Source: Cyathus striatus (taxonomy: Eukaryota; Basidiomycota; Agaricomycetes; Agaricales; Nidulariaceae). From it: 64,000 nucleotides of DNA. Position numbers and translations under genes: made by a program. A model generated the notes under the pieces. The model was not told where the DNA came from and made no database searches. It saw only the letters and a list, made by a program, of their open reading frames with translations. This document shows, one piece after another, positions 6,759 to 60,841 of this stretch. Within the stretch, counting starts at the first letter, position 1. Every line of letters begins with the position of its first letter. The stretch lies in assembly GCA_025738555.1 (NCBI GenBank), contig JAOVFP010000001.1:5456001-5520000 (forward strand), given 5' to 3'.

Positions 6759-8378
6759 TTATATATTTAGGGCTTCCGGATGTTCCCGATGAAATTTATT
6801 AAGTAAGCTCTTGGCTCCCGTTAGTGCGTCGATCGGTTCCCAAGTGCAATCTTCCATCGAATAACCTTTCCATTTTATTTTATATAATATTCGTTTCCGG
6901 TTCTTTTTCCATGCTAAAATAGACTCTACTTCGTATTGTTCTTGATCATCAATTAAGATAGCGGGTGGTGGTTTAGGTTTACTTTGAGATGGATATTGAG
7001 CCAGCGTGAATTTAGATAATAATTCTACATTAAATGTTGGATTTTTTCTATTCCACGATTTCGGTAATTCGAGTTTATAAACCGATGGTGCAATTTTTTC
7101 AATAATTTTAAAAGGTCCGTAACGTTTGTCATCCAATTTCAAGACCGGTCGATCGGATTTAATATTAATTCCTTCAAGGTAAACTTTATCGCCAATCTGG
7201 TATTCGGGTGCTTCTTTTCGATGTTTATCATAGTAACGTCCCATTGTTTCGTTTGCCAAGGATAGGGCTGCTTTCGCATTTTCTCTTGCTTTTTCCATTG
7301 TTTTGACAAATTCTTCAACACCTATGGCTCTTGTTTTCCCGGATGGTCTAATTCCTGTGTAAGGGTGGTATCCGTACATTAAATAGAATGGGGTATATCC
7401 GGTTGTTCTATGAACGGTATTATTATAATTAAATTCACAAATGTTTATTTTTCGAGCCCAATCATCTTGATCGTAATTTACGTAAATTCGCATATATTGT
7501 TCTATTTCTTGGTTCACCCTTTCTGTTTGTCCGTTGGTTTGTGGTCGGTAAGCTGTTGATAGATTCATTCGAACACCAAGTTGTCTTGTTAATTCTTTGG
7601 TGAAAAATGAAGCGAATTGTGATCCTCGATCGCTGATTACTCGTTTTGGAACACCGTAATGTGTAAATACTTTTTCAAGATATTTTTCCGCTACTCCTGC
7701 ACTATTTATTTCTTTATTACATGGTATGAAGGCGGCCATTTTCGTGAATCGATCGACGATTACCATTAGAAAGTCAAATCCTTCTGATAATGGAAGAGGT
7801 CCAATGAAGTCTATGGATATCGTATGCCAGGGATGTTCGGGTACACTGTTCGGGATGAGTTTTCCTACTGGAGCAGATCTATGGATATTTGTCCTTTGAC
7901 ATGCTTCGCATCCGGATACATATTTCTTTATGTCTGCCATAAGTCTAGGCCACCAATAGTCTCTTGTGATAAGTTCCATGGTTTTGTATTCTCCTCGGTG
8001 TCCAGATATCTCTGAGTCATGACATAATCTTATTATGCGTTCTCTCAGTTTGGCATTTTTAGGAACATAGACGCGATCTTTCCACATAATAATACCTTCT
8101 TGAGATTCAACCCAATCCTTAGATTCAAGATTAAGCATCTTAATTACTTCTTTGTCTCGGTTTTTTCTAGATTTACGAATTTGTTCCATGATTTCTTCGT
8201 CTTCTCCATGGACTTCATAAGTTTGTCTGAAATGTTCTGGTTTAAGTAATATAAGATCCTCATTATCTTGATTTCCCTGGTTGTGTCCTGCTCTTCGTGA
8301 TAAAAGGTCTGCTTTTGTCATCTGATTGCCTGGTTTGTGATGTAGTGTGTAATGGAATTCTTGTAGTTCTGTATTCCA
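6759..8378 (-). CDS. Ty3 pol, distal part: integrase with chromodomain
   Basis: This is the same reading frame as the proximal pol, separated from it only by the TGA at 8379-8381. It shows a zinc-binding HHCC module (LCHDSEISGHRG ... GCEACQ) and a DDE core: Asp in SIDFIGPLPL, Asp in VISDRGSQF and Glu in NGQTERVNQEIE. A GPF/GPY-type region (DDKRYGPFKII) follows, and then a C-terminal chromodomain (VESILAWKKNRKRILYKIKW ... DCTWEP). Chromodomains of this class steer integration to particular chromatin. The first ATG after the stop is at 8319-8321, but in the intact element this segment is made as part of Gag-Pol. Confidence 0.93.
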   Translation of the reverse strand, partial: WNTELQEFHYTLHHKPGNQMTKADLLSRRAGHNQGNQDNEDLILLKPEHFRQTYEVHGEDEEIMEQIRKSRKNRDKEVIKMLNLESKDWVESQEGIIMWKDRVYVPKNAKLRERIIRLCHDSEISGHRGEYKTMELITRDYWWPRLMADIKKYVSGCEACQRTNIHRSAPVGKLIPNSVPEHPWHTISIDFIGPLPLSEGFDFLMVIVDRFTKMAAFIPCNKEINSAGVAEKYLEKVFTHYGVPKRVISDRGSQFASFFTKELTRQLGVRMNLSTAYRPQTNGQTERVNQEIEQYMRIYVNYDQDDWARKINICEFNYNNTVHRTTGYTPFYLMYGYHPYTGIRPSGKTRAIGVEEFVKTMEKARENAKAALSLANETMGRYYDKHRKEAPEYQIGDKVYLEGINIKSDRPVLKLDDKRYGPFKIIEKIAPSVYKLELPKSWNRKNPTFNVELLSKFTLAQYPSQSKPKPPPAILIDDQEQYEVESILAWKKNRKRILYKIKWKGYSMEDCTWEPIDALTGAKSLLNKFHREHPEALNI

Positions 8379-10595
8379 TCATGCCTGGCGTCTGTTCAGT
8401 TTCTGAGGTTTCCTAAAATATTGAAGATTCTTATGATCGGTCCAGATTTCAAAGATTTGCTTAGCTCCTAAAAGATATTGTCGCCAAGTATCTAATGCTC
8501 TTATGATTGCGAGCATTTCTTTATCGTAAATCTCATAGTTCCGTTCCGTCGGGCTTAATGCATGGGATAAAAAGGCGATTGGCTTCCATTTTCCATCGGG
8601 TTGTTCTTGAGATAAAATGGCTCCATTTGCGAAGTCAGATGAATCAGCTTCTACTCGGTATTTTCCATCATCACTTGGCATAGCTAGTATTGGTGCCGAA
8701 ATGATTTGGTCTTTTAATTGAGAGAAAGCGAGTGCTTGCGATAATTCCCATTTCCATTCATTTTTGCCTGTAAGTTCGTGAAGTGGTTTAGCAATCTTGG
8801 CAAATCCTTCAATAAATCGTCGATAGAAATTTATGAAACCTAAGAATTGTTGGAGTTCTCTTTTGTTGTTCGGAACTGGCCAATCGATTATTGCTTTAAC
8901 CTTTTCCGAATCCATACGTACAGAATTCTTAGAGATTATAAGACCTAGATATTCTACTTCAGCTTTTTCAAAGAAACATTTTTCCGGTTTAAGATATAAT
9001 TCGTGTTCTTCTAGTTTTCTAAGGACACGTTTTACCATCTTTCGATGTTCTTCCAAAGTTTCCGTAAATATCAAAATATCATCCATGTATACAATCACTG
9101 TTCCTTCATTGATTTCCATTCTGAATATGTCGTTCATCATGGTTTGAAAGGTTGCTGGGGAATTGGTAAGACCGAAGAACATTACTAAAGGTTCGAATAA
9201 TCCTCGATTAGTTCTAAACGCAGCATACTGTTCATCTCCTTCCTTTATTCGGACATTGTTGTATCCCCATCGAATATCCAATTTTGTGAAATAGCGTGCT
9301 TTCTTTAATTTATCTACTAACTCCTGAATTAACGGTAAAGGGTATCTATTTTTAACCGTCATTTCATTCAGTTTTCGATAATCTTGAATTGGTCTAAGCG
9401 AACCATCTTTCTTCTTAATAAAAAAGAATGGAGATGCCCATGGTGATTTCGAAGGTCTAATGCGTCCTGAATTAAGGTTTTCATCGAGGAATTCGTCAAG
9501 TTGCTTCTGTTCATCGAGATTCAATGGATAAATTTTGCAGTCAAATGAAGTGGCTCCTGGTAGTAATTCAATGGCGTGATCCCAAGGTCTTCGAGGTGGA
9601 AGTTTATCGAAGGATTCTTTGGTGAATACTTTTTCGAATTCATGATAATACATTGGAACGGTTTCCTTCCAATGCTTCTTAGGTTTTTGTTGATTTTGAG
9701 CTTCAGCAATTTTAGAAGCAGTTGTTTGGAATGCTCGTATTTCAATTTGTTCGAACAAATTCACCGCAATAATTCGATCATCTGATTCTAGATTAATTGG
9801 TTCATCTAGATCTGATTCGTCTTCTTCTGGGTTCATAGTGTTAATCAATGGAGTACATTCTATTGGACAACGTGTGAATTTGATTGTGTTTTCTTTCCAA
9901 TCTATTTCCGGATTGTGAATTTTTAACCAATCGTGTCCAATAAACATAGATGCTTTCCCAAGATTGGAGACGGCGAATTGAATTATTTCCACATGCCTTC
10001 CAAGTCTAACTCGAAGTTCAACGTAATCAGTGATAGCTCCATCACTATTTAGAGTTCCATCGGCGTTATAAACAGGAGTAGGGCGTGGAAGCTTTTTTGT
10101 AGTGATATTGTTGTTTTCCACAAATTTCCGATCAATGCATGTTCCAGTACTTCCGCTATCAAGTAATGCCTTAAGTCCATAGGTTCGTTGAGTGTCTAAA
10201 GTGGTAATCATTAGGTCAAGATCCATTTGATTTCCTTTAGATCCTCGAATGAACTTTTTGGGTCCTTTTAATTCGTTTAACACTTGAATTACATCCTGAT
10301 CGGAGAGATCATTCAGTTCATCAATTGTTTTCGGAGTTACTTCTAGTTTCCGTTTCGAGTGTGTCCAAATGCTAAGTGATGCTAAAGCAAGTTCCGGTGT
10401 TTGGTCTTTTAATCTCCGTGCGACCCAATACACGTTTCCAGGTTTTACTTCTTGATCAGGGAAGGTGCGCTGTGATATCTTTTTCTTGAACGATACGAAC
10501 TTAGATTCCAGATCAATTGTAGGTACAGTTACAGAAGAAGCTATATAAGTAGAGGCCGGCGAGTTCGCGCTTACTGCTGGCCCTGGGGAAAACCC
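8379..10595 (-). CDS. Ty3 pol, proximal part: protease, reverse transcriptase, RNase H (ends at an in-frame TGA)
   Basis: The frame is open from the gag slippery site (10589-10595) to the TGA at 8379-8381. In order it shows an aspartic protease (LLDSGSTGTCID), a reverse transcriptase (LDIRWGYNNVRI and the catalytic YMDDILIF) and a Ty3-type RNase H (EADSSDFANGAI, YDKEMLAI, WTDHKNLQYF). The frame lies -1 relative to gag and has no ATG near its beginning, so expression by -1 frameshifting is the natural reading. The TGA follows NRRQA, where related elements carry Arg then Trp. A single CGA to TGA change would explain it. Downstream pol remains open, so this is one recent nonsense mutation rather than general decay. 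Confidence 0.93.
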   Translation of the reverse strand, partial: GFSPGPAVSANSPASTYIASSVTVPTIDLESKFVSFKKKISQRTFPDQEVKPGNVYWVARRLKDQTPELALASLSIWTHSKRKLEVTPKTIDELNDLSDQDVIQVLNELKGPKKFIRGSKGNQMDLDLMITTLDTQRTYGLKALLDSGSTGTCIDRKFVENNNITTKKLPRPTPVYNADGTLNSDGAITDYVELRVRLGRHVEIIQFAVSNLGKASMFIGHDWLKIHNPEIDWKENTIKFTRCPIECTPLINTMNPEEDESDLDEPINLESDDRIIAVNLFEQIEIRAFQTTASKIAEAQNQQKPKKHWKETVPMYYHEFEKVFTKESFDKLPPRRPWDHAIELLPGATSFDCKIYPLNLDEQKQLDEFLDENLNSGRIRPSKSPWASPFFFIKKKDGSLRPIQDYRKLNEMTVKNRYPLPLIQELVDKLKKARYFTKLDIRWGYNNVRIKEGDEQYAAFRTNRGLFEPLVMFFGLTNSPATFQTMMNDIFRMEINEGTVIVYMDDILIFTETLEEHRKMVKRVLRKLEEHELYLKPEKCFFEKAEVEYLGLIISKNSVRMDSEKVKAIIDWPVPNNKRELQQFLGFINFYRRFIEGFAKIAKPLHELTGKNEWKWELSQALAFSQLKDQIISAPILAMPSDDGKYRVEADSSDFANGAILSQEQPDGKWKPIAFLSHALSPTERNYEIYDKEMLAIIRALDTWRQYLLGAKQIFEIWTDHKNLQYFRKPQKLNRRQA

Positions 10596-11926
10596 AGTTG
10601 AGCAATAAGGAGAGCCCGTTGTTCCTCCGATAATCTAGTAATGTCCGGTAGTTCTACGATTCCACTAGTGGATGCTACTGGTATAGGGTTATTTATATAC
10701 TGAGTGTCTATATTTACATTTCGTTGTACATAAGGGCCTCGGTTTTGCTTTTTAGGGCATGCGTTGGCCATGTGTCCTTTTTCCTTACAATAGAAACAAC
10801 GTCCTTCTCGTTTCAAGGCATTCATGGTGTCGACATCCATACGATCTCCTCCTTGCGATACCGTGAGGTTGGCTCGGTTTGGGGGAGGTGCAGGGTTCTG
10901 AGGAAAATGGGGTCCTTGATTCTGAGATTGGAATTGATTTGGTCGTGGTCCACCCTGTTGGGTATTCTGCACGCCTTGTCGTTGTCCAAAATTCTGGTTT
11001 TGTCCGGGATTGGATTGTTGTCCTTGTCGTGGGTTTTTGTTTCTAAAAATATTCCGACATTCTCGATCAATTTCCTGAGCTGTATCGTACCATTTTTGAA
11101 GGGTGTTCGGAGTTCCTCGCATAACAATCATTTCAAGTAATCGAGGGTCAAGTTTGTCTTTGTATTTTCTAATAACCGCGGCGTCATTATATCCCGTTCG
11201 TCCAGCAATGGTTGAAAACCTGACAGTGAATTCTTCAACTGTCCAGCGTCCCATGTATAAATTATCGAGTTCGTCCTGAGCGTCCTGAATTTCTGAATAT
11301 ACTCCGAAAAAATGTAAAAAGTCCTCCTTAATCTGTTCGTATTTGGTTCCAGGGGTTTGTTCCATTATTACCATAATTCGATCAACCCAGCTAGCTGCTG
11401 TTTGATTCTTTGATCCGTCTATAAGGCTCAACATGAACCTTATCTTCATCTCATGCTCAAGGGGATTGACACGAGATCCGGTGAAGTACGACTCCAGCGA
11501 TCTCATCCAAGCTCTCGCATGTTTACGATCTCCCGTATATTTCTCAGGCTTCTCAATTTTGAGAGCCTTATCTGTGACTGCATCACGTTGTCTGTGTGCC
11601 ATCATTGAAGTGGCTTGGGCTGTTTCGATTACTGGGTTATGTAATCCATATATGCCTCTTCCAACAAATTTGATAGCGTCTACAATCATGTGTACCCAAC
11701 CTCCTCGTTCAGATGAAGTTGGAGGGTTAGGTGGGGGCGGTGGTGGTTGGTTGGGGGTGTTAGGGGGTTGTCCGAAATTTACTGGTAGCATGAGGGGTGA
11801 AGGAGATCCCTGTGGAGTAGGAGCTTCCGTGTGAATTGTCGGAGTGGTATGATGTGTTCTGGGATTATTAATATAATCGGTTCCTGGTACCGGTACCTGG
11901 TTCCATGGATTTCCTGGTGTATCCAT
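10571..11926 (-). CDS. Ty3 gag (capsid and nucleocapsid)
   Basis: A 451-codon frame from the ATG at 11924-11926. The N-terminal part is Pro-rich (PPPPPPNPP). The central part is a retrotransposon Gag capsid domain (KYTGDRKHARAWMRSLESYF ... WTVEEFTVRFSTIAG). A Gln/Asn-rich linker leads to one CCHC zinc knuckle (CFYCKEKGHMANAC) near residue 385. The stop is TAA 10571-10573, and the pol frame begins upstream of it in the -1 register. Gag assembles the cytoplasmic particle in which reverse transcription occurs. Confidence 0.92.
   Translation of the reverse strand: MDTPGNPWNQVPVPGTDYINNPRTHHTTPTIHTEAPTPQGSPSPLMLPVNFGQPPNTPNQPPPPPPNPPTSSERGGWVHMIVDAIKFVGRGIYGLHNPVIETAQATSMMAHRQRDAVTDKALKIEKPEKYTGDRKHARAWMRSLESYFTGSRVNPLEHEMKIRFMLSLIDGSKNQTAASWVDRIMVIMEQTPGTKYEQIKEDFLHFFGVYSEIQDAQDELDNLYMGRWTVEEFTVRFSTIAGRTGYNDAAVIRKYKDKLDPRLLEMIVMRGTPNTLQKWYDTAQEIDRECRNIFRNKNPRQGQQSNPGQNQNFGQRQGVQNTQQGGPRPNQFQSQNQGPHFPQNPAPPPNRANLTVSQGGDRMDVDTMNALKREGRCFYCKEKGHMANACPKKQNRGPYVQRNVNIDTQYINNPIPVASTSGIVELPDITRLSEEQRALLIAQLGFPQGQQ
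10589..10595 (-). promoter_or_regulatory. Candidate -1 ribosomal frameshift heptamer between gag and pol
   Basis: On minus, gag codons CTG GGT TTT contain G GGT TTT, which fits X XXY YYZ. A slip of -1 here enters the pol frame, which I read without a stop up to the protease. The gag stop lies 15 bases downstream. A possible stem follows (GGCC at about 10578-10581 with GGCC at about 10553-10556, minus strand). No functional evidence is available. Confidence 0.55.
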
Positions 11927-11928
11927 AT

Positions 11929-12360
11929 TTATAGTTCGAAATCGGGGTAAGTAGGCGTAGGAAGTTCTCTACCGTCGTTGTGAACGGTGTTAAGAAGGGT
12001 TTCGTATCCTAATGGAGAATAGAAATCCTGTGATAATGGGGATATGTATCGGGTGGGAGTACTGAATCTTAGACTGTCGTCGTGTCCGAGTTCGGTGATG
12101 ATAGTGAGGATACGGGGAATAGGGATAATGGGACGGGGTAGAGGTGGAATGTAATCGGGGATTTGATGGAGTGAAAGGTATGTGTTGGGATCGAAGTCTG
12201 AGTCGTCGGAGTCCACCGACACGGCTCTCAGATTACGAGTGTAAGGGGTAGGGCGAGATCGAGGGGTGTAGATTGGCGTGGAGGATGAGGGAATGTGATA
12301 GGATCGGTTACGAAGAGTACGGAGGGTTTGGGAACGGGTGATAGGTGCCAGAATGAGAGA
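11929..12360 (-). other. ATG-less open frame upstream of gag in the retroelement leader
   Basis: The frame is open from just after a TAA at 12361-12363 to the TAA at 11929-11931, two bases before the gag ATG. It has no ATG; GTG codons occur at 12220-12222 and nearby. The translation is Ser/Pro/Arg-rich, then acidic (VSVDSDDSDFD), with no recognised domain. It could be leader RNA open by chance, or a peptide begun at a non-ATG codon or reached by splicing. Confidence 0.35.
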
Positions 12361-24245: not shown

Positions 24246-24682
24246 TATATATAAATATCACAATAATATTAATCATCATTACTTCTTGTTTGCGTTACGC
24301 ATTTTAAGCCGTTTTGATTTGGTTGGTTTCATCCTTATGTTCTATGAACCTTAGTTATTGTTGATCTCTTTAGGCTTATTGTGCCGACGATTGATGATAT
24401 TTCTTCAAGTGCCATGGCAACGAACTTCGAAGTAATTTTCAGAACGTCCAAGTTGGATAAACAATTGGAAGTCTACCACATAAATCTCGCAGAACCAGTG
24501 GTGGCTTGACATTCCAATGCCTATATACTCATCATCGAACACCCTCAATTTCAAACTATGGCAAAGACACTCTGGTGTATTGAAGTCATCACCTCACCTT
24601 GATGTCCGACGAACATCGGTAAGCCAATCGATGACTCGTTCCTTAACCTTTAAGTCCATTAAATTTACATCTGTTGTAGCAA
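24246..24682. other. Spacer between LRR-like gene 1 and F-box-like gene 1
   Basis: About 440 bp, similar to 37276-37713 in the paralogous unit. A probable 5'-UTR intron of the F-box gene (GGTAAGCC near 24619 to TTGTAG at about 24679) ends just before its ATG. Confidence 0.5.
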
Positions 24683-25795
24683 ATGATTAGCCCTTTCGAT
24701 AAATTACCGACAGAACTCATACAAGAAATATTTGACCGATGCATTGACTGGGAGGGATCCCGCGATCTTCGCTACCTACCACCACCAAGACGGTGGACTA
24801 CGATGGCAATATCGCAAGTTTGTCGGCGATGGCGTTTTGTTACGCTCGATATGCCTCGCTTATGGACCTGCATTTACATGACCAATACGAACTTCATTCA
24901 ACTATGCCTACAAAGATCAAAGAATTATCCTTTGTACATCACAACTACACGCAGCACCAACACCCGTCCGACAAAAGTGAGCGGAGATGTCATTTCTTAC
25001 GCGATTGACCATGTTACGCAGTGGAAAACGGTGAAGATAGCAGTGGATTGTTGTAATCCAGACGATTTATCTGGCCTCCGAGGGAAGTCCACTCCGCTTT
25101 TAGAATCACTTAATGTGGAAGGAATGGGGTTTCCTCCTGAAGGACATCTACCTTTTACAGACGCGATTTTCTCCCTCCTGTCGTCTTCTTCTCAGATACA
25201 ACATCTTCGCCTAGCAGACTTACGTCTTCCTTCGCTCTTGGATGCTAACGTGTGGTCTCGGTTGACTTCCATTGCACTATGCGATTTGCACCCTCTTACA
25301 TCGGATGATTGCATCAAGTGCTTATCCATGTGCACTTCAGCAACAGAAATTATCTTCACCGGCGTTACTGTAGACTTACCCCCACCTTCCAAGACGCATC
25401 CAGTGACACTCCTCCCGAGACTAGCTAAATTGGATTTAAGCATTCGTTCCGACGCAGCAAAATTCTTGCAATACTTCTCCCTCCCGCACCTCAAACAGCT
25501 GTACATCGGTCGTAATCAGGGGCCGCACGATTATGATGCGCTGGATCGATTTTACGTGCAGTCAAATTTCTCCCTCGAATCATTCCGATTCATGCTGGAT
25601 GATAGACGTATGGAAAATATCGTCCTCTTCTTTCAGCTTCCATGGTTAAATCATATTCCGCATGTTTCGCTCATTTGCTTTGGAGTATCGGAGAGGACAA
25701 AGTCAAGACTTCTTTTGAGGCCGGAGATATCCCACATCGTAAAGGAAAAGCTGACGGTCGACGGGGATCTCATTGGATGGGGGAAACATATTTAA
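24683..25795 (+). CDS. F-box-like protein with leucine-rich C-terminus, array gene 1
   Basis: An intact single exon of 370 residues. The N-terminus is an F-box-like domain of the basidiomycete type (LPTELIQEIFDRCIDW ... AISQVCRRWRFVTLDMPRLW). The rest has leucine-rich strands (LLESLNVEGMGF, IQHLRLADLRLPSLLDA, LPRLAKLDLSI, LPHLKQLYIGR). F-box proteins normally bring substrates to SCF ubiquitin ligases through Skp1; the target here is unknown. The paralog at 37714-38820 is closely similar over its whole length. Both being open while neighbouring FTase copies decay suggests selection on the F-box genes. Confidence 0.85.
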   Translation: MISPFDKLPTELIQEIFDRCIDWEGSRDLRYLPPPRRWTTMAISQVCRRWRFVTLDMPRLWTCIYMTNTNFIQLCLQRSKNYPLYITTTRSTNTRPTKVSGDVISYAIDHVTQWKTVKIAVDCCNPDDLSGLRGKSTPLLESLNVEGMGFPPEGHLPFTDAIFSLLSSSSQIQHLRLADLRLPSLLDANVWSRLTSIALCDLHPLTSDDCIKCLSMCTSATEIIFTGVTVDLPPPSKTHPVTLLPRLAKLDLSIRSDAAKFLQYFSLPHLKQLYIGRNQGPHDYDALDRFYVQSNFSLESFRFMLDDRRMENIVLFFQLPWLNHIPHVSLICFGVSERTKSRLLLRPEISHIVKEKLTVDGDLIGWGKHI

Positions 25796-37275: not shown

Positions 37276-37713
37276 TATGCATAAATATCATAATAGTATT
37301 AATGCCGGTTTGTGTGCTACCATAATTTTCAGTGCTATGTATATATTTGACATGTTCTAATAATACTTAACCTTGGTTAGTTACCAAGCGATGGAGACTA
37401 GAGTTGATCCTAAGTTGATCGCCCGCTGATATTTCTTATGCTGTGCCATGGCAACGAATTAATTGTCTGAACTTGGTCTGAACGTGAAGTTGAGTAAACA
37501 ATTAGGAACTTACTAGATATATCTCGTGAAATAAGTAGGTTATTATTCCAATGCCTCTATACGTATCTTCAAACTTTCTCAACTTCAAATTATGGCAAAC
37601 CCACTCTGGTCTGATGAGATCGTCGCCTGATCTTGTAGTCCGTAGTGCATCAGTAAGCCGAGAGGGTGACCTGCTCCTTAACTATTAATTAAAATCTACA
37701 TTTGTTGTGGCAG
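37276..37713. other. Spacer between LRR-like gene 2 and F-box-like gene 2
   Basis: Paralogous to 24246-24682. No gene. A likely 5'-UTR intron ends at the CAG just before the ATG. Confidence 0.45.
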
Positions 37714-38820
37714 ATGATTAGCCCATTCGATAAATTACCGACAGAGCTCCTCCAAGAAATATTTGAGCTATGCATCGACTGGGAGAGAACACACGATCTC
37801 TTCGATGTAGTCATACGACCAGGACGATGGATCACAATGGCAATATCGCAAGTTTGCCAACGATGGCGTTCTGTTACGCTTTCTATGCCTCACTTATGGA
37901 CCTACATCTACATTAATAACAACACGAACTTCATTCAATTATGCCTTCAAAGGTCAGAGAACCGCCCTCTGTATCTTACCACTCCGCACGGCGCCCGGCG
38001 CAAAGTGAGCAGAGACACCATTTCTCATGCAATTGATCACGTCACGCGCTGGAAAGCGGTGAAAATGGTAGCAGAACGTTGTGATCCAGATGATATATCC
38101 GGTCTCAAAGGGAAATCCACTCCTCTTTTAGAATCACTTCATTTACATGGAATGGCGTTTCCGTTCGAAAGACGTCTTTCCCTCACAGACACCTTTTTCT
38201 CCCTCCTGTCGTCCTCTTCACAGGCACAACACCTTCGCTTAACAGACTTGCCCCTACCCTCATTCTTAGATATTAAGATGTGGTCTCGTTTGACTATTAT
38301 CATACTACGCGATTTGCACCCTCTGACATCGGACGATTGCATCAAGTGCTTATCCATGTGCACTTCGGCGATAGAAATTAAATTCACCAGCGTTTCCGTA
38401 GACTTACCCCCACCTTCCAAGGCGCATTCAGTGACACTTCTTCCGCGACTATCTAAATTGGAGTTGGGTCTTCCTTCCGACGCAGCAAAATTTTTGCAAT
38501 ACTTTTCCATCCCGCACCTCAGAGAGCTGGATACAAGTCGTAATCAGGGACCATACGATTATGATGCACTGGATCAATTTTATGTGCAATCGAGCTTCTC
38601 TCTAGAAACATTCCATTTCAAGTTGAGTGATAGAGGACTTCAGGATATCGCCCGCTTCTTTAGACTTTCATGGCTGGACCACATTCCTAACGTTTCGCTC
38701 TTCGTCTATGGAATCTCGGAGAGAACAAAGTCGAGACTACTTCTGAGACCGGACATATCTCGTACTATAAAAGAGAGGTTGGTACTCGACGGGAACTCAA
38801 TAGGCTGGGGGAAACAATAA
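37714..38820 (+). CDS. F-box-like protein with leucine-rich C-terminus, array gene 2
   Basis: An intact single exon, 368 residues from the ATG at 37714. The frame is open a few codons further upstream, but without another ATG. Domain order equals that of the 24683 gene: F-box-like LPTELLQEIFELCIDW ... AISQVCQRWRSVTLSMPHLW, then leucine-rich strands (SLHLHGMAFPF, LRLTDLPLPSFLD, LPRLSKLELGL, IPHLRELDTSR). Differences from gene 1 are scattered substitutions with no shared break, so both appear maintained. Possible role: substrate receptor of an SCF ubiquitin ligase, inferred only from the F-box. Confidence 0.85.
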   Translation: MISPFDKLPTELLQEIFELCIDWERTHDLFDVVIRPGRWITMAISQVCQRWRSVTLSMPHLWTYIYINNNTNFIQLCLQRSENRPLYLTTPHGARRKVSRDTISHAIDHVTRWKAVKMVAERCDPDDISGLKGKSTPLLESLHLHGMAFPFERRLSLTDTFFSLLSSSSQAQHLRLTDLPLPSFLDIKMWSRLTIIILRDLHPLTSDDCIKCLSMCTSAIEIKFTSVSVDLPPPSKAHSVTLLPRLSKLELGLPSDAAKFLQYFSIPHLRELDTSRNQGPYDYDALDQFYVQSSFSLETFHFKLSDRGLQDIARFFRLSWLDHIPNVSLFVYGISERTKSRLLLRPDISRTIKERLVLDGNSIGWGKQ

Positions 38821-45542: not shown

Positions 45543-46676
45543 TTAGTAGTTTGGCAGAGGATACATATTTTTCATCAACTTTTTGAACTTCTTCGGCAAC
45601 TTCTTCACCACACTTCCTACGTGGTCAAAAAGCTTCCCCTGTATGCATGCCTGGTGAAGCATGACTGGGTCCCCATTTGAAGCAGAGAAATACACATTAT
45701 AAACTGCTTTCAACCCATTTTTATCATCATCATTTTTGCAATTGATAAGCCCATAATCCACCGTTATAGACATCGTAGGTTCCACCTGACTTCCATCAGC
45801 AACGACAAATTGTTTGAGATCCCATACAGAGTAACGCATTAACCGACTCCCTAGGAAATCCTCTAAATGTGGAGGAAGATCCTTGGAAGCTCCTAAAACT
45901 TTGAGTTTTTGGAACAATGTGGCATTTATAAATGCATCACAGAACTCGTTGAAGGTGCAATTATGCAGCAGCATTCGATAGCAACCTCCGAGGCGTACTT
46001 CATCTTCTAGTTGCTTACATGTACAAAACCCAAAGTCAACCCATTCAGGTTGGATTGGGTTTGGATGAAGCTGTGACAAAATCGACATACAAAAGAGGAA
46101 GCATGTGCGCCGTTCAGGTGGCCAGGTATCAATCGCACTTTTGCCTTCCTCTGTGGAGTTAACAGTTCCCTCACCCCCAGCGTACTCCCAACCACGGCGA
46201 AACATGTCTAGCAACGGGTCACCAGGAGCAGGAACTGAGTTTTCTAATATCCATTGATTCTTTAGGAACCACGCATAGTATTCCCCTCTGTTATTGACAG
46301 GGATCTTGCTATACGCAGCTTTGATCTCTGGAATCAATCTGCCTTCAATTCTCCATTTATGCAGAGACTTCGAAGGGATTTCAATGACGCATATGAGCCC
46401 GATATATAGCCCCAAGAGCATGCTCATGTTGTGAGATGTAAATGCCTTCGAAAAACCGAAGTCATCAAGAGTTTGCTGATCCTCTGGACAGATATCACGT
46501 CGTGCGGCATGAGCAAGGTGGTGAGCGGTGTTGATAGGACATCGCGGGTTACAATCGAATATATGGGAATCCCAATCTAGCTTCTGGCAATGGGAGCCAC
46601 AATACCAGACTTTAGAACATCCTGAACATCGCTTCGTTGCTGGTTCTTCACAGTATTTACATTTGTGATCTGGCAT
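45543..46676 (-). CDS. MYND zinc-finger protein
   Basis: I place the start at the ATG at 46674-46676, directly before the finger; an in-frame ATG 48 bp upstream would add MSLTLCDFSCQLRFLT. The MYND finger lies at residues 4-42: CKYCEEPATKRCSGCSKVWY then CGSHCQKLDWDSHIFDC, with all seven Cys and one His ligands present. The remaining 330 or so residues have no recognised domain but match the layout of the many basidiomycete MYND proteins of unknown role. The single exon of 377 residues ends KKLMKNMYPLPNY. MYND fingers bind proline-rich partners; the partner here is unknown. Confidence 0.88.
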   Translation of the reverse strand: MPDHKCKYCEEPATKRCSGCSKVWYCGSHCQKLDWDSHIFDCNPRCPINTAHHLAHAARRDICPEDQQTLDDFGFSKAFTSHNMSMLLGLYIGLICVIEIPSKSLHKWRIEGRLIPEIKAAYSKIPVNNRGEYYAWFLKNQWILENSVPAPGDPLLDMFRRGWEYAGGEGTVNSTEEGKSAIDTWPPERRTCFLFCMSILSQLHPNPIQPEWVDFGFCTCKQLEDEVRLGGCYRMLLHNCTFNEFCDAFINATLFQKLKVLGASKDLPPHLEDFLGSRLMRYSVWDLKQFVVADGSQVEPTMSITVDYGLINCKNDDDKNGLKAVYNVYFSASNGDPVMLHQACIQGKLFDHVGSVVKKLPKKFKKLMKNMYPLPNY

Positions 46677-46892
46677 GGTCAGAAACCGGAGCTGACAACT
46701 GAAGTCACATAGAGTAAGCGACATATAGTAGCATGGGACTCTGAATACTCACCAGAACTGACGGGGTAAGAACCTGAAAACAGTTTGAGAACACAGGCTA
46801 CAGGAAAATAAAGCTAGTAGACTGGAGAGAATCTCGAGTTGAGAGGAAGCGGGTAGGCACCTGCGTGGTAATGCGTATGTAAGTTCTTATTA

Positions 46893-51647: not shown

Positions 51648-51655
51648 TATAAAAG
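51648..51655 (+). promoter_or_regulatory. TATA box of the repeat-peptide precursor gene
   Basis: TATAAAAG, about 250 bp before the ATG at 51897. Two intron-like segments in the leader (51726-51781 and 51821-51874, both GT...CAG) would shorten the 5' UTR. The second also removes an upstream ATG at 51862. Confidence 0.7.
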
Positions 51656-51896
51656 GTGGCACACATCCACCTCAATCCTTCAGCAGTGCCCGGTGCATTC
51701 TCATACCACTCATCTCAATCAGCTGGTATGTTCCTTCTCTTACTTGATCCCTACAATGTACTGATAGACAATTTTTCGCAGAAACAGGGCCGGTCCCTTC
51801 ATAATCCACTTAAACTCTTTGTACGTCTATCCCATCTTCAACGACATCTCCAACGACTTATCATGCCCTTACAGATATCTGATCTATCTCATAAAA

Positions 51897-53399
51897 ATGC
51901 GTTCTTCAGTCCTCGTTTTTGTTATCTGCGCCGTCTACGCTTCCCGTGTAGCGGGTGTCCCGTTGGTGGTGTGTACTTCATTTTCGCACTCGCCGTACGC
52001 AGCTAAAGTACTCTTCTAGGACTCCAATGCTATTGAAGCCCGATCTCCGGCACGCGATGGTCGTGGAAGCGTGAACCTCCATGTTGGGCTCCCACCCATC
52101 AACATCGGTGCTCCACAGGTTCGTATCCCACCCAATGGTCAAATATGCTTGACTCATATAGTACAGCCTCAGCAACGTTCCCTTGAGGATATGGAACTTG
52201 AAGCCAGGGGTTGCGGTGGATACAACAGCGTTAGTGTTCTTCATTTTTTACTGCTAATCATGATACTGAATGATTCGTCAGCCCCATCACCATGCCCGCT
52301 CTGTGGACGAGGAACTCGAAACCAGAGGTCGTGGAGGATACAATCGCGTTAGTATCCTTCTTTACGCACTGCTACTCGACATGCTGAACTTTCTCTAGCC
52401 ACACGCGCGCTCTGTCGATGAGGACCTTGAAGCCAGAGGTCGTGGTGGATACAACCGAGTCAGCGCTCTTCATTGCATGCTACTAATCATGATACTGAAC
52501 AATTTTAAAGCCCCATGCCCGCTCTTTCGACGAGCTTCAGTCCAGGGGGCGTGGTGGATATAACCGAGTACGTGCCATATTTGCTTATAATTGTTAGCCA
52601 TGGCTCTGAACAATCCGCTAGCCCCACGCGCGCTCTGTCGACGAGGATCTAGAAGCCAGGGGACGTGGTGGATACAACCGAGTAGGTTTTCTTATACGGT
52701 TCTCATTGAAGACATGCTAAACATTTCGTAGCCCCACGCACGCTCTGTCGATGAGAACCTTGAAGCTAGGGGTCGTGACGGGTATAATCGCGTAAGTTTT
52801 CCTATTACCTCAATGTAGTCCGTCATACTGAGCAATTTTACAGCACAAGCGATCTGTAGACGACATGGACCTGGAAGCCAGGGGGCGTGGCGGCTACAAC
52901 CGCGTAGGTGTTCCTAGTTATTATGTTAACAATCATACCAACATTTCTTAGCACAAGCGATCGGTCGACGACATGGACCTCGAAGCTAGGGGTCGTGGTG
53001 GATACAATCGAGTAAGTGATATCCCTTGCTTGCTGCTGATCATGATGCTGAATGATTCGTTAGCCCCACGCCCGCTCTGCCGACGAGGAGCTTGAAGCTA
53101 GGGGACGTGGAGGATACAACCGAGTAGGTGCCCTTATTTGCTTATCGTTGCCGACACTGAACAATTTATAGCCCCATGCGCGTTCTGTCGAAGAGAACCT
53201 CGAAGCTAGAGGTCGTGGCGGATACAACCGCGTATGTGTTCCTATTAGTTCAATGTAGCCCATCACACTGAACATTCCTTAGCACAAACGATCCGTCGAA
53301 GAGAACCTCGAAGCTAGGGGACGTGACGGGTACAACCGCGTAGGCATCACTCCTCTCTTACTATAAACCATCATGCTGAACACCTCATAGCACAAGTGA
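51897..53399 (+). CDS. Secreted precursor with 11 one-exon peptide repeats
   Basis: Fourteen exons, all phase 0, encode 280 residues: 51897-51968 (signal peptide MRSSVLVFVICAVYASRVAG), 52020-52118 (pro-region), eleven repeat exons (52167-52229, 52282-52347, 52399-52458, 52511-52567, 52622-52681, 52732-52791, 52844-52903, 52952-53011, 53064-53123, 53172-53231, 53283-53339) and 53391-53399 (His-Lys-stop). Repeat consensus is PHARSVDEDLEARGRGGYNR. The tail RGRGGYN is nearly invariant and the N-terminal half drifts. Three repeats start HKR instead of PHAR. Arg-rich junctions (NRPHAR, NRHKR, EAR) suggest kexin-type or related cleavage. Known fungal parallels are alpha-factor, Kex2-processed repeat proteins and dikaritin RiPP precursors with Tyr in the core. 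No known family was recognised; the mature product, any Tyr modification and the function are unknown. Confidence 0.85.
52282..53390 (+). repeat. Tandem exon-plus-intron repeat, unit 108-117 bp
   Basis: Ten successive unit lengths from exon 4 to exon 14 are 117, 112, 111, 110, 112, 108, 112, 108, 111 and 108 bp. Introns (48-54 bp) are alike too: most have a CTGAAC/CTGAAT branch-like word about 15 bases before the AG, and some share GATCATGATGCTGAATGATT-type text. The expansion unit was therefore the whole exon with its intron. Intron 5 starts with the unusual donor GTCAGC. Confidence 0.9.
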
Positions 53400-54705: not shown

Positions 54706-56772
<2,067 letters not shown>

Positions 56773-58846: not shown

Positions 58847-60004
58847 TCATCGGTATTCCATTTCTCGAGCAAGAATCTCGCGCTCTAACCTTTCCTTCTC
58901 TATTTTCCTCTGCACCAAGTCGTAATCCATCTTGGGCTTATAGTTAAGCGGGAATGTAGTACGGAGGCCACTTTTATGCAAATGCGATGCGGAGTCTTCA
59001 ATAATCCCACAAGCTACCCGTGCCTTGTGTGCTTGTCTCATTCGTGCTAACGTCATCGCTTCATACTCTGGATCGACGCCTTTAGAATTTGACGCTTTCT
59101 GTCCTGTAAACGCATCAGTTGTGTGCCTTTGTGAATGATGTGAGTCCTCCCTGTCCTCCTCAACCCACGAAATCTCGACTCCTTCAAGACCTAGATCCGA
59201 TCGCCCACTCGCACGTATAGCAGCCAAAGCACATTCAACCCTTCTAAAGGGAACCAACGCAATACAGTATTCTCTCGATTTTTTCTTCAAAACAATCAAC
59301 TCTTCGTCAATGTCACCAAAGGGACTTAGCACCCTCGCGATTGATTCGGCCGTTCCGAGATCCGGACGAGTCTTGATCCCGAATCGAAGACGGACTATCG
59401 TATTGAGCAGACCTGCAAATTTAAACTCTGGACGCCCAGTGTCTAGCGAGGACGATTCATGAACATCACCTGGTGCATCGAGACGCATACCATGTAACCT
59501 CTCCTCCCAGTCCCTCTGTTCCCGCCTTTTCTTCTCCATTAAAGTCCTATTTTGGTCTTTAATACCTTGCGCACGGAACATCTCCTTTTCTTGCTCTTTC
59601 TTTCTCTGGTTCTCTGCTGCCTCTGCCTCTCTGCGTTTAAGATCAGCTATCATCTCCTTGCGCTTGACTTCACGCGCTTTATCACGGGCCCTAGTCATAT
59701 ATCTAGCAACATCAGCATCGTGCTTCGTGCGAGCTTGTGCTGCTTGTCGAGCGGCATCTGCTGCCTCCTTCGACTTTGTTGTTTGCCTTCCGGAAGTGTT
59801 TAGTAGCTGATCATGCGCTTGTTTAAGTTCATGGAACTTCATACCTGCTGTTTTTGGATCATCGCGATTTTTATCGGGGTGGTAGAGGAGTGATAGTTTG
59901 CGGTAGGCTGTTTTTATTTGTTGTTCTGTTGCTGTTTCGTTTATGCCGAGGAGCTCGTATGGTGTTGGTTTGAGTGTCCAGAAGTTGGACTGGTCTTTTG
60001 ACAT
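58847..60004 (-). CDS. J-domain protein with RRM-like domain (DNAJC17/Cwf23 type)
   Basis: A single exon of 385 residues. The J domain occupies about residues 14-70 (YELLGINETATEQQIKTAYR ... LYHPDKNRDDPKTAG) with the HPD tripeptide needed to stimulate Hsp70. A long charged coiled coil (about 80-170: KAREVKRKEMIADLKRREAE ...) leads to a C-terminal RRM-like domain (IVRLRFGIKTRPDL ... IARVLSPFGDIDEELIVLKK ... CALAAIRASGRS). This J-coiled-coil-RRM order is that of human DNAJC17 and yeast Cwf23/Cwc23, which act with the spliceosome in the nucleus. The ending KERLEREILAREMEYR is highly charged. Confidence 0.88.
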   Translation of the reverse strand: MSKDQSNFWTLKPTPYELLGINETATEQQIKTAYRKLSLLYHPDKNRDDPKTAGMKFHELKQAHDQLLNTSGRQTTKSKEAADAARQAAQARTKHDADVARYMTRARDKAREVKRKEMIADLKRREAEAAENQRKKEQEKEMFRAQGIKDQNRTLMEKKRREQRDWEERLHGMRLDAPGDVHESSSLDTGRPEFKFAGLLNTIVRLRFGIKTRPDLGTAESIARVLSPFGDIDEELIVLKKKSREYCIALVPFRRVECALAAIRASGRSDLGLEGVEISWVEEDREDSHHSQRHTTDAFTGQKASNSKGVDPEYEAMTLARMRQAHKARVACGIIEDSASHLHKSGLRTTFPLNYKPKMDYDLVQRKIEKERLEREILAREMEYR

Positions 60005-60841
60005 CTTTGATTTGTATGTGTAGGCGAAGAGATAGCCTGGAGAATTAGAGGAGAGTTTTGAAGCGTTGGTGATGGAAGTTGGAAAGTATCATCCGAACAA
60101 CAGCAACTATTTATTTAAATATCGTTAATATGAGTCATGTGCTCATGTAAGACGATGGTGTAGATTCGTTTCCTGTAAATGCAACGCGAACAGTCATGAT
60201 GTATCGTCCTTGTAATTTACAAACGACTCTGTAATAGGAAGGTTATAATTAAGAAAGATACATCAGCTGCTGGCAGTTTGCAGTGACCGACGCAGATGTA
60301 CTATCAGATGCGCTGTATTCAATTGGAGTTATCCTATTTCTTAATATAATTGAACATAACAGCAGAAGAATACAGAATTAAATTACTCGTAGGCGCCGAT
60401 TCCAATTTCTTTTGGGCGCTTATACCACTAGGACTTTCATTACCAATCCCCTCCCACGAGACTGGAAGGTCTCGGTTTGCACTCCTTTCGACTTCCTCTC
60501 AAAATCATTGCCTGTATTTAATTCGTGCAACTTCCATCTTTCTTGGATCGTAACACGTGGATATCTGATGACGGATTGTTATAACTGAGATAATAACTCC
60601 CCACTGACTAAATCAAGACTTGACGACCTGTGAGATTCCGCAGTGTACGAATATTCCTGGAACACCTTTGAAACCCGCTTTTAAATTTATCGTTTTTTTA
60701 TTCCAGCAATCGATGTCCCTGCTACCTTACCAGCCCTTCTGGAGGACAATGTTCTCATACGTTATAAGAAGTACACATACGTGGCTGCTACACTACCACA
60801 GGTACTCTCCAAGTTCTCAGATGTATCACAAATCTCAACTC
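60005..60841. other. Divergent intergenic region, no gene
   Basis: Upstream regions of the J-domain gene (minus) and the lactonohydrolase-like gene (plus). A frame at 60620-60841 reads into the latter's start but has no family features. Confidence 0.4.

Follow-up and report, generated by a model that had tools for sequence, protein, structure and literature searches.

The gene at 51897–53399 of the window, that is, of the whole 64,000-nucleotide stretch analysed (5456001–5520000 of contig 1 in the 107.45-Mb, 24-contig genome of Cyathus striatus), is best explained as the precursor of secreted repeat peptides and as a member of a small family built from phase-0 exon units, a reading to which, judging from the sequence, we assign a probability of roughly 0.6. 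The gene has 14 coding exons and 13 introns on the plus strand and encodes a protein of 280 aa. The arrangement proposed in the initial sequence-only reading, namely a hydrophobic leader and a pro-region followed by 11 one-repeat exons of 57–66 bp with phase-0 introns of 48–54 nt, is confirmed by splicing of the sequence: all 13 introns are in phase 0, fall within that length range and run from GT to AG, with a YAG acceptor in 12 and the weaker AAG once, before exon 6. When scored with a matrix derived from the introns of the sibling gene, the donors rank at the 85th–99th percentile among the 3814 GTs of the window, and the acceptors lower, at the 21st–94th percentile, being ordinary with one weak.

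Exon 1 (51897–51968) encodes the leader MRSSVLVFVICAVYASRVAGVPLV, a putative signal peptide recognized by eye, with a matching start in three further genes, and exon 2 (52020–52118) encodes the pro-region DSNAIEARSPARDGRGSVNLHVGLPPINIGAPQ, the counterpart of which in the C. striatus protein BDQ17DRAFT_1425758 (P0001) is NAVEARSPGRGGRLNLHVGLPPINIGSPP. The 11 repeat exons lie within 52167–53339, and every one is a multiple of three in length. Eight repeats end in GRGGYNR (exon 4, 52282–52347; exon 5, 52399–52458; exon 6, preceded by the weak acceptor, 52511–52567; exon 7, 52622–52681; exon 9, 52844–52903; exon 10, 52952–53011; exon 11, 53064–53123; exon 12, 53172–53231), two in GRDGYNR (exon 8, 52732–52791; exon 13, 53283–53339) and one in the divergent form GCGGYNS (exon 3, 52167–52229); exons 9, 10, and 13 start with a dibasic HKR. 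The last exon (53391–53399), which reads HK-stop, looks like the stub of one more repeat of the HKR type. In an alignment of four upstream regions, a TATA-like element, tataaaagg, is found on the plus strand at 51648–51656, with similar elements before the C1 and C8 paralogs described below. Two probable 5′UTR introns were recognized by eye on the same strand, one (GT..AG, 51726–51781) between CAGCTG and a stretch containing GGGCCGGTCCC, and the other (GTACGT..CAG) at 51821–51874; both have counterparts, again by eye, in the C1 and C8 paralogs. The number of 14 splice junctions given earlier is therefore close, the coding introns numbering 13 and the probable 5′UTR introns adding two.

The repeats bear a clear mark of selection on the encoded peptide. 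Over the 11 repeats, pN/pS is 0.19 for the whole repeat, 0.08 for the seven-residue core, and 0.27 for the nine-column linker preceding it, with synonymous sites differing at 0.59 versus non-synonymous sites at 0.11. In the last 12 codons of the 11 repeats, diversity at codon positions 1, 2, and 3 is 0.10, 0.03, and 0.45, respectively, as compared with 0.52 in the intron interiors, and the third-position excess was reached by none of 10000 column shuffles. For the same 12 codons, pN/pS is 0.14 in the true frame and 1.9–6.6 in four of the five other frames; the exceptional frame, on the minus strand (0.16), contains stops, and its third position is the same base as that of the true frame. The core Tyr and Asn are constant in all 11 repeats, and the conserved Tyr-containing core pointed out in the sequence-only reading is upheld by this constancy together with the low core pN/pS. 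Since third positions are nearly as diverse as the introns, the copies are unlikely to be recent: this is an old coding array in which the peptide was kept while the DNA drifted, and the repeat copies are either old or fast-evolving.

In a genome search, exon 1 matches DNA at three further genes, designated L006 (the C1 paralog), C8, and C18 (the last two after their contigs), so that homologs with repeats, as anticipated, do exist. Two of these paralogs (L006 and C8) have the exon-per-repeat layout, which C18 lacks. L006 lies 45 kb downstream of the window gene on the same strand. Its alignment with P0001 yields 14 exons and 418 identities in 438 aligned residues, the two sequences disagreeing in a short stretch where exon 10 ends; as the aligner permitted phase-0 introns only, it is the near-gapless fit, and not a free test, that speaks for this phase in L006. 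P0001 comes from a separate annotation and hence lends support to such splicing; it also places the genome in C. striatus (Nidulariaceae, Agaricales) or beside it. It was the sole match in the protein search (E 4.1e-48), its residues 1–110 used as a protein query returned P0001 alone, and, when compared with the genome, it retrieves the two C1 genes and C8, C18 being absent. For the window gene itself the protein search gave no C. striatus ortholog, perhaps because tiny exons are missed in the gene models, and the protein searches returned no relative of the exon-per-repeat genes outside C. striatus. The C8 paralog carries, by eye, one repeat per exon and a long RGG-rich cargo; its second exon (L004, about 1728–1820, contig C8) is slipped by 1 nt relative to its siblings, through damage or an assembly error, and is the exception to this layout. 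The C18 paralog has the matching exon 1 and retains the intron that follows, but its nine GRSGYNR copies all stand in a single 456-nt exon; eight of the copies are preceded by LEAR or IEAR and the ninth by LETR. Its origin as a processed retrocopy is not favoured, with intron 1 being retained and a donor-like GTTAGT following the last repeat. With both the matching exon 1 and one phase-0 exon per repeat, the window gene belongs to the Cyathus one-repeat-per-exon family.

In the three exon-per-repeat genes, most repeat exons follow one rule of construction: they open with a few variable residues, the last of them Arg, and continue with an acidic linker, S-[FVL]-D-D/E-..-L/I-E-A-R, and the cargo. 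The linker pattern, devised after inspecting the exons, fits 11 of 11 exons in the window gene, 9 of 12 in L006, and 9 of 9 offered from C8, the slipped C8 exon being excluded. In the window gene the linker is of the type S-V/F-D-E-D-L-E-A-R placed after an Arg, and both the Arg before Ser and the Arg at the linker end are present in all 11 repeats; a dibasic KR occurs in three repeats, and the other eight have single Arg only. The cargo differs from gene to gene, consisting of GRGGYNR in the window gene and RGG-rich sequence in C8, and including LHVGLPPINIGSP, TPRGGFRGGFRGMGRHPS, and SPKLLGGVRLPKLHIPIPTFDL in L006, where one exon also carries GRGGSNRH after the common linker, similar to the cargo multiplied in the window gene. 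These paralogs are of interest as one-repeat-per-exon genes that retain the linker while the cargo differs. The linkers carry a net charge of −1 to −3 and the window cores one of 0 to +2, and an acidic linker beside a neutral-to-basic core is the pattern of many cationic-peptide precursors.

A protein search with C18 revealed five further proteins with GRSGYN repeats: P0002 (E 1.6e-16), with 10 copies of GRSGYN or close forms, and hypothetical proteins (P0003–P0006) of Apiospora kogelbergensis (E 9.0e-6, 6 copies), Colletotrichum aenigma (E 2.5e-4, 6 copies), Durotheca rogersii (E 7.2e-3, 4 copies), and Colletotrichum tamarilloi (weak, E 0.057, 3 copies). The three species looked up among these matches belong to the Sordariomycetes (Ascomycota). 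Because the 7994 candidates scored were those sharing exact words with the query, the shared core word was itself selected for. Like the window gene, the five proteins contain several core copies, and their spacers are mostly acidic; unlike it, the named ones come from another phylum, and by eye no leader, spacer, or pro-region is evidently common to them and the Cyathus genes, so that convergence and common origin are indistinguishable here. P0005 and P0006 have no clear leader, so that secretion may not extend to all GRSGYN proteins. A basic residue directly follows the core in 1 of 10 copies in P0002 and in 16 of 29 over all five proteins; with the P0002 copies mostly lacking basic brackets, release would not be needed in every member. 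The window protein, P0001, and P0003–P0005 are without a Pfam match, and those of P0002 (CopK) and P0006 (TrAA12) fall under the cut-off; the C-terminal extension of about 100 aa in P0002 (residues about 170–274) has no Pfam match over the cut-off. A literature search for the letter strings GRSGYN, RSGYN, GRGGYN, and SGYNR gave, among the papers listed, none on fungal peptides, as judged by title.

The occurrence of a related core type in two gene architectures of one genome and in another phylum points to the core as the functional part. We tentatively propose, as a reading with the odds against it, that GR[SG]GYN may be a secreted peptide occurring across the Dikarya, ancient or passed between phyla and having a common target, for which bird's-nest fungi would use two precursor designs, the first giving each copy a separate exon and the second keeping the copies together in one, the exon-per-repeat genes being a cassette system of constant linker and interchangeable cargo. 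To our knowledge, the products of most fungal repeat precursors are not known. The cross-phylum core is accordingly the part most worth following, as it offers a concrete peptide for synthesis and testing.

As to how the precursor may act, we read the window gene, by analogy, as working like Kex2-processed repeat proteins. In the predicted pathway, the protein would be secreted via its hydrophobic leader, kexin-type proteases would cut at single arginines and additionally at KR in three repeats, the C-terminal Arg would be trimmed from the released cores, and about eleven GRGGYN-type peptides would be set free to act outside the cell as a signal, an antimicrobial, or otherwise. The constant arginines flanking the linker, together with LEAR or IEAR before eight of the nine C18 cores, suggest cutting at these places, and L-E-A-R, with Leu or Ile at P4, would be a suitable kexin site. 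Two loci with a kexin P-domain are present in the genome. Products apparently arising from cuts after single Arg are described for Coprinopsis KEPs (Kex2-processed repeat proteins) expressed in Pichia in the portion available of PMC9769878. The window gene resembles the fungal KEPs, as the consulted parts of the report on Coprinopsis cinerea (PMC9769878) and of two surveys (PMC7329392, PMC6339444) present them, in its leader (hydrophobic by eye, with exon 1 matched at the three further genes), in its near-identical short peptides (11 repeats with a conserved core), in the basic repeat borders, and in having no Pfam match; it differs in that these borders are mostly a single Arg instead of KR, RR, or KK. 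With KR in just three of the 11 repeats, it is KEP-like and not a proven KEP.

The main rival to the released-peptide reading is a secreted protein that remains uncut, its disordered Gly/Arg/Tyr-rich repeats presenting GR[SG]GYN as a multivalent binding motif in a cell wall, matrix, or adhesive. Eight of the 11 repeats indeed lack a dibasic site, the C8 cargo is a long RGG-rich sequence, and P0002, in which basic residues seldom flank the 10 core copies, has the long C-terminal extension; an uncut protein would nevertheless leave unaccounted for the arginines kept on both sides of every linker in the window gene, and the LEAR/IEAR preceding eight of nine cores in the C18 array, which is intronless. 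We consider an uncut protein unlikely, though it deserves to be kept in mind.

The exon-per-repeat design of the predicted precursor is worth comparing with known systems. The sequence-only reading held that fungal precursors normally carry their repeats inside long exons. This does not hold as a general rule, in view of the animal genes below, and for fungi no statement either way was found: in the main texts of the three KEP papers, as far as available, the word 'exon' is absent, and 'intron' appears once in PMC9769878, in connection with cDNA cloning, and not at all in PMC7329392 and PMC6339444. The honey bee apidaecin gene has several exons with one peptide each, and the ant hymenoptaecin precursor, of similar build with RR sites and EAEP spacers, encodes its peptides within one exon, as stated in the sections seen of PMC3415428; this contrast resembles that between the window gene and the C18 gene, although the animal peptides are unrelated to those of the window gene. 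The caerulein and magainin genes of Xenopus likewise contain tandem peptide-encoding exons, which can multiply through unequal crossing-over and, according to the excerpts consulted (PMC3731216, PMC3899252), are nearly identical when duplicated, in contrast to the window gene with its third positions near intron-level divergence. SP7-like effectors of arbuscular mycorrhizal fungi share with it a leader, imperfect hydrophilic repeats, and a paralog family; the passages available of PMC11333574 describe for them a conserved intron ahead of the first repeat, rather than an intron for every repeat. Tandem peptide exons are therefore already known from animal defence-peptide genes, at least as these partial sources describe them, and the fungal exon-per-repeat design is a variant of that theme, of which no description in fungi was found in the open-licence literature, most subscription papers lying outside it.

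The earlier suggestion that the Tyr-containing core could be a modified RiPP core of the dikaritin type, cyclised through Tyr by UstYa-family oxidases, receives no support, and we regard it as improbable. The core Tyr is constant in all 11 repeats, as such a core would have it, and 32 UstYa matches are listed in the genome, but UstYa (DUF3328) genes, sought near the four genes of the family, are missing beside the precursors: among the matches listed, none lies within 1.4 Mb, the nearest being about 2.9 Mb from the C1 genes, 1.5 Mb from C8, and 2.3 Mb from C18, which makes a UstYa-modified RiPP unlikely. UstYa neighbours were counted for 103 of 1680 basidiomycete KEPs in the part available of the survey by Umemura (PMC7329392), and are thus uncommon but occurring. 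Elsewhere in the genome, four UstYa matches fall within about 4.3 kb (G000, contig C3:2564951–2569288), possibly an RiPP locus. In the neighbourhood of the window gene, the scan covered 20 six-frame ORFs out of 84 with at least 110 aa, a set in which intron-broken genes may be missed; outside the retroelement described below, none of them was listed with a UstYa, peptidase, or P450 domain.

The array would have grown by duplication of exon-plus-intron units of about 110 nt. In agreement with this part of the sequence-only reading, six copies of 118-nt stretches spanning an exon and an intron align at 62–100%, and the introns are 63.5% alike, as compared with 54.6% after shuffling of their interiors. 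Exon and intron divergence across copies show no significant correlation (Mantel r 0.14, p 0.15; r 0.27, p 0.07), so that inheritance of the whole unit is not demonstrated.

It has also been suggested that one repeat per exon serves as a dose switch, regulated exon skipping setting the number of peptides per transcript. Skipping would stay in frame, since each of the 11 repeat exons has a length divisible by three and lies in phase 0, but beyond this symmetric phase nothing supports the proposal, and the C18 precursor has every copy of its related core in one exon. Furthermore, short fungal introns are usually recognised as introns, and retention is the commoner alternative to normal splicing, which also counts against a dose switch. 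As predicted from the sequence, retention would mostly break the protein, disrupting the frame or meeting a stop in 12 of the 13 introns: five are not a multiple of three, seven of the remaining eight have an in-frame stop, and only the intron at 52119–52166 could be read through in frame. We therefore think a dose switch most doubtful.

Least credible of all is a non-coding tandem satellite or a dead gene merely resembling exons, which the repeat unit of about 110 nt, as in satellites, and the frame slip in the C8 paralog might suggest, but against which stand the strong third-position bias with a core pN/pS of 0.08, the conserved upstream region, and the spliced sibling matched by a C. striatus protein, the codon-position bias rejecting a non-coding repeat and refuting it for the coding part.

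A search of plasmid DNA gave no match and is uninformative for a fungus. Other features were observed in the window. A Gypsy-type LTR retroelement (6762–11968, minus strand) has gag, reverse transcriptase, RNase H, integrase, and chromodomain matches over the Pfam cut-offs and an aspartyl protease match under the cut-off. Two separate F-box-like ORFs (24680–25792 and 37693–38817, both on the plus strand) score over the Pfam cut-off, and a MYND-finger ORF lies at 45546–46748 (minus strand). Downstream of the window gene, part of an ORF for a pyridine nucleotide-disulphide oxidoreductase is found 1.5 kb away (54932–55429, minus strand), and a DnaJ-domain protein is encoded at 58850–60088 (minus strand).
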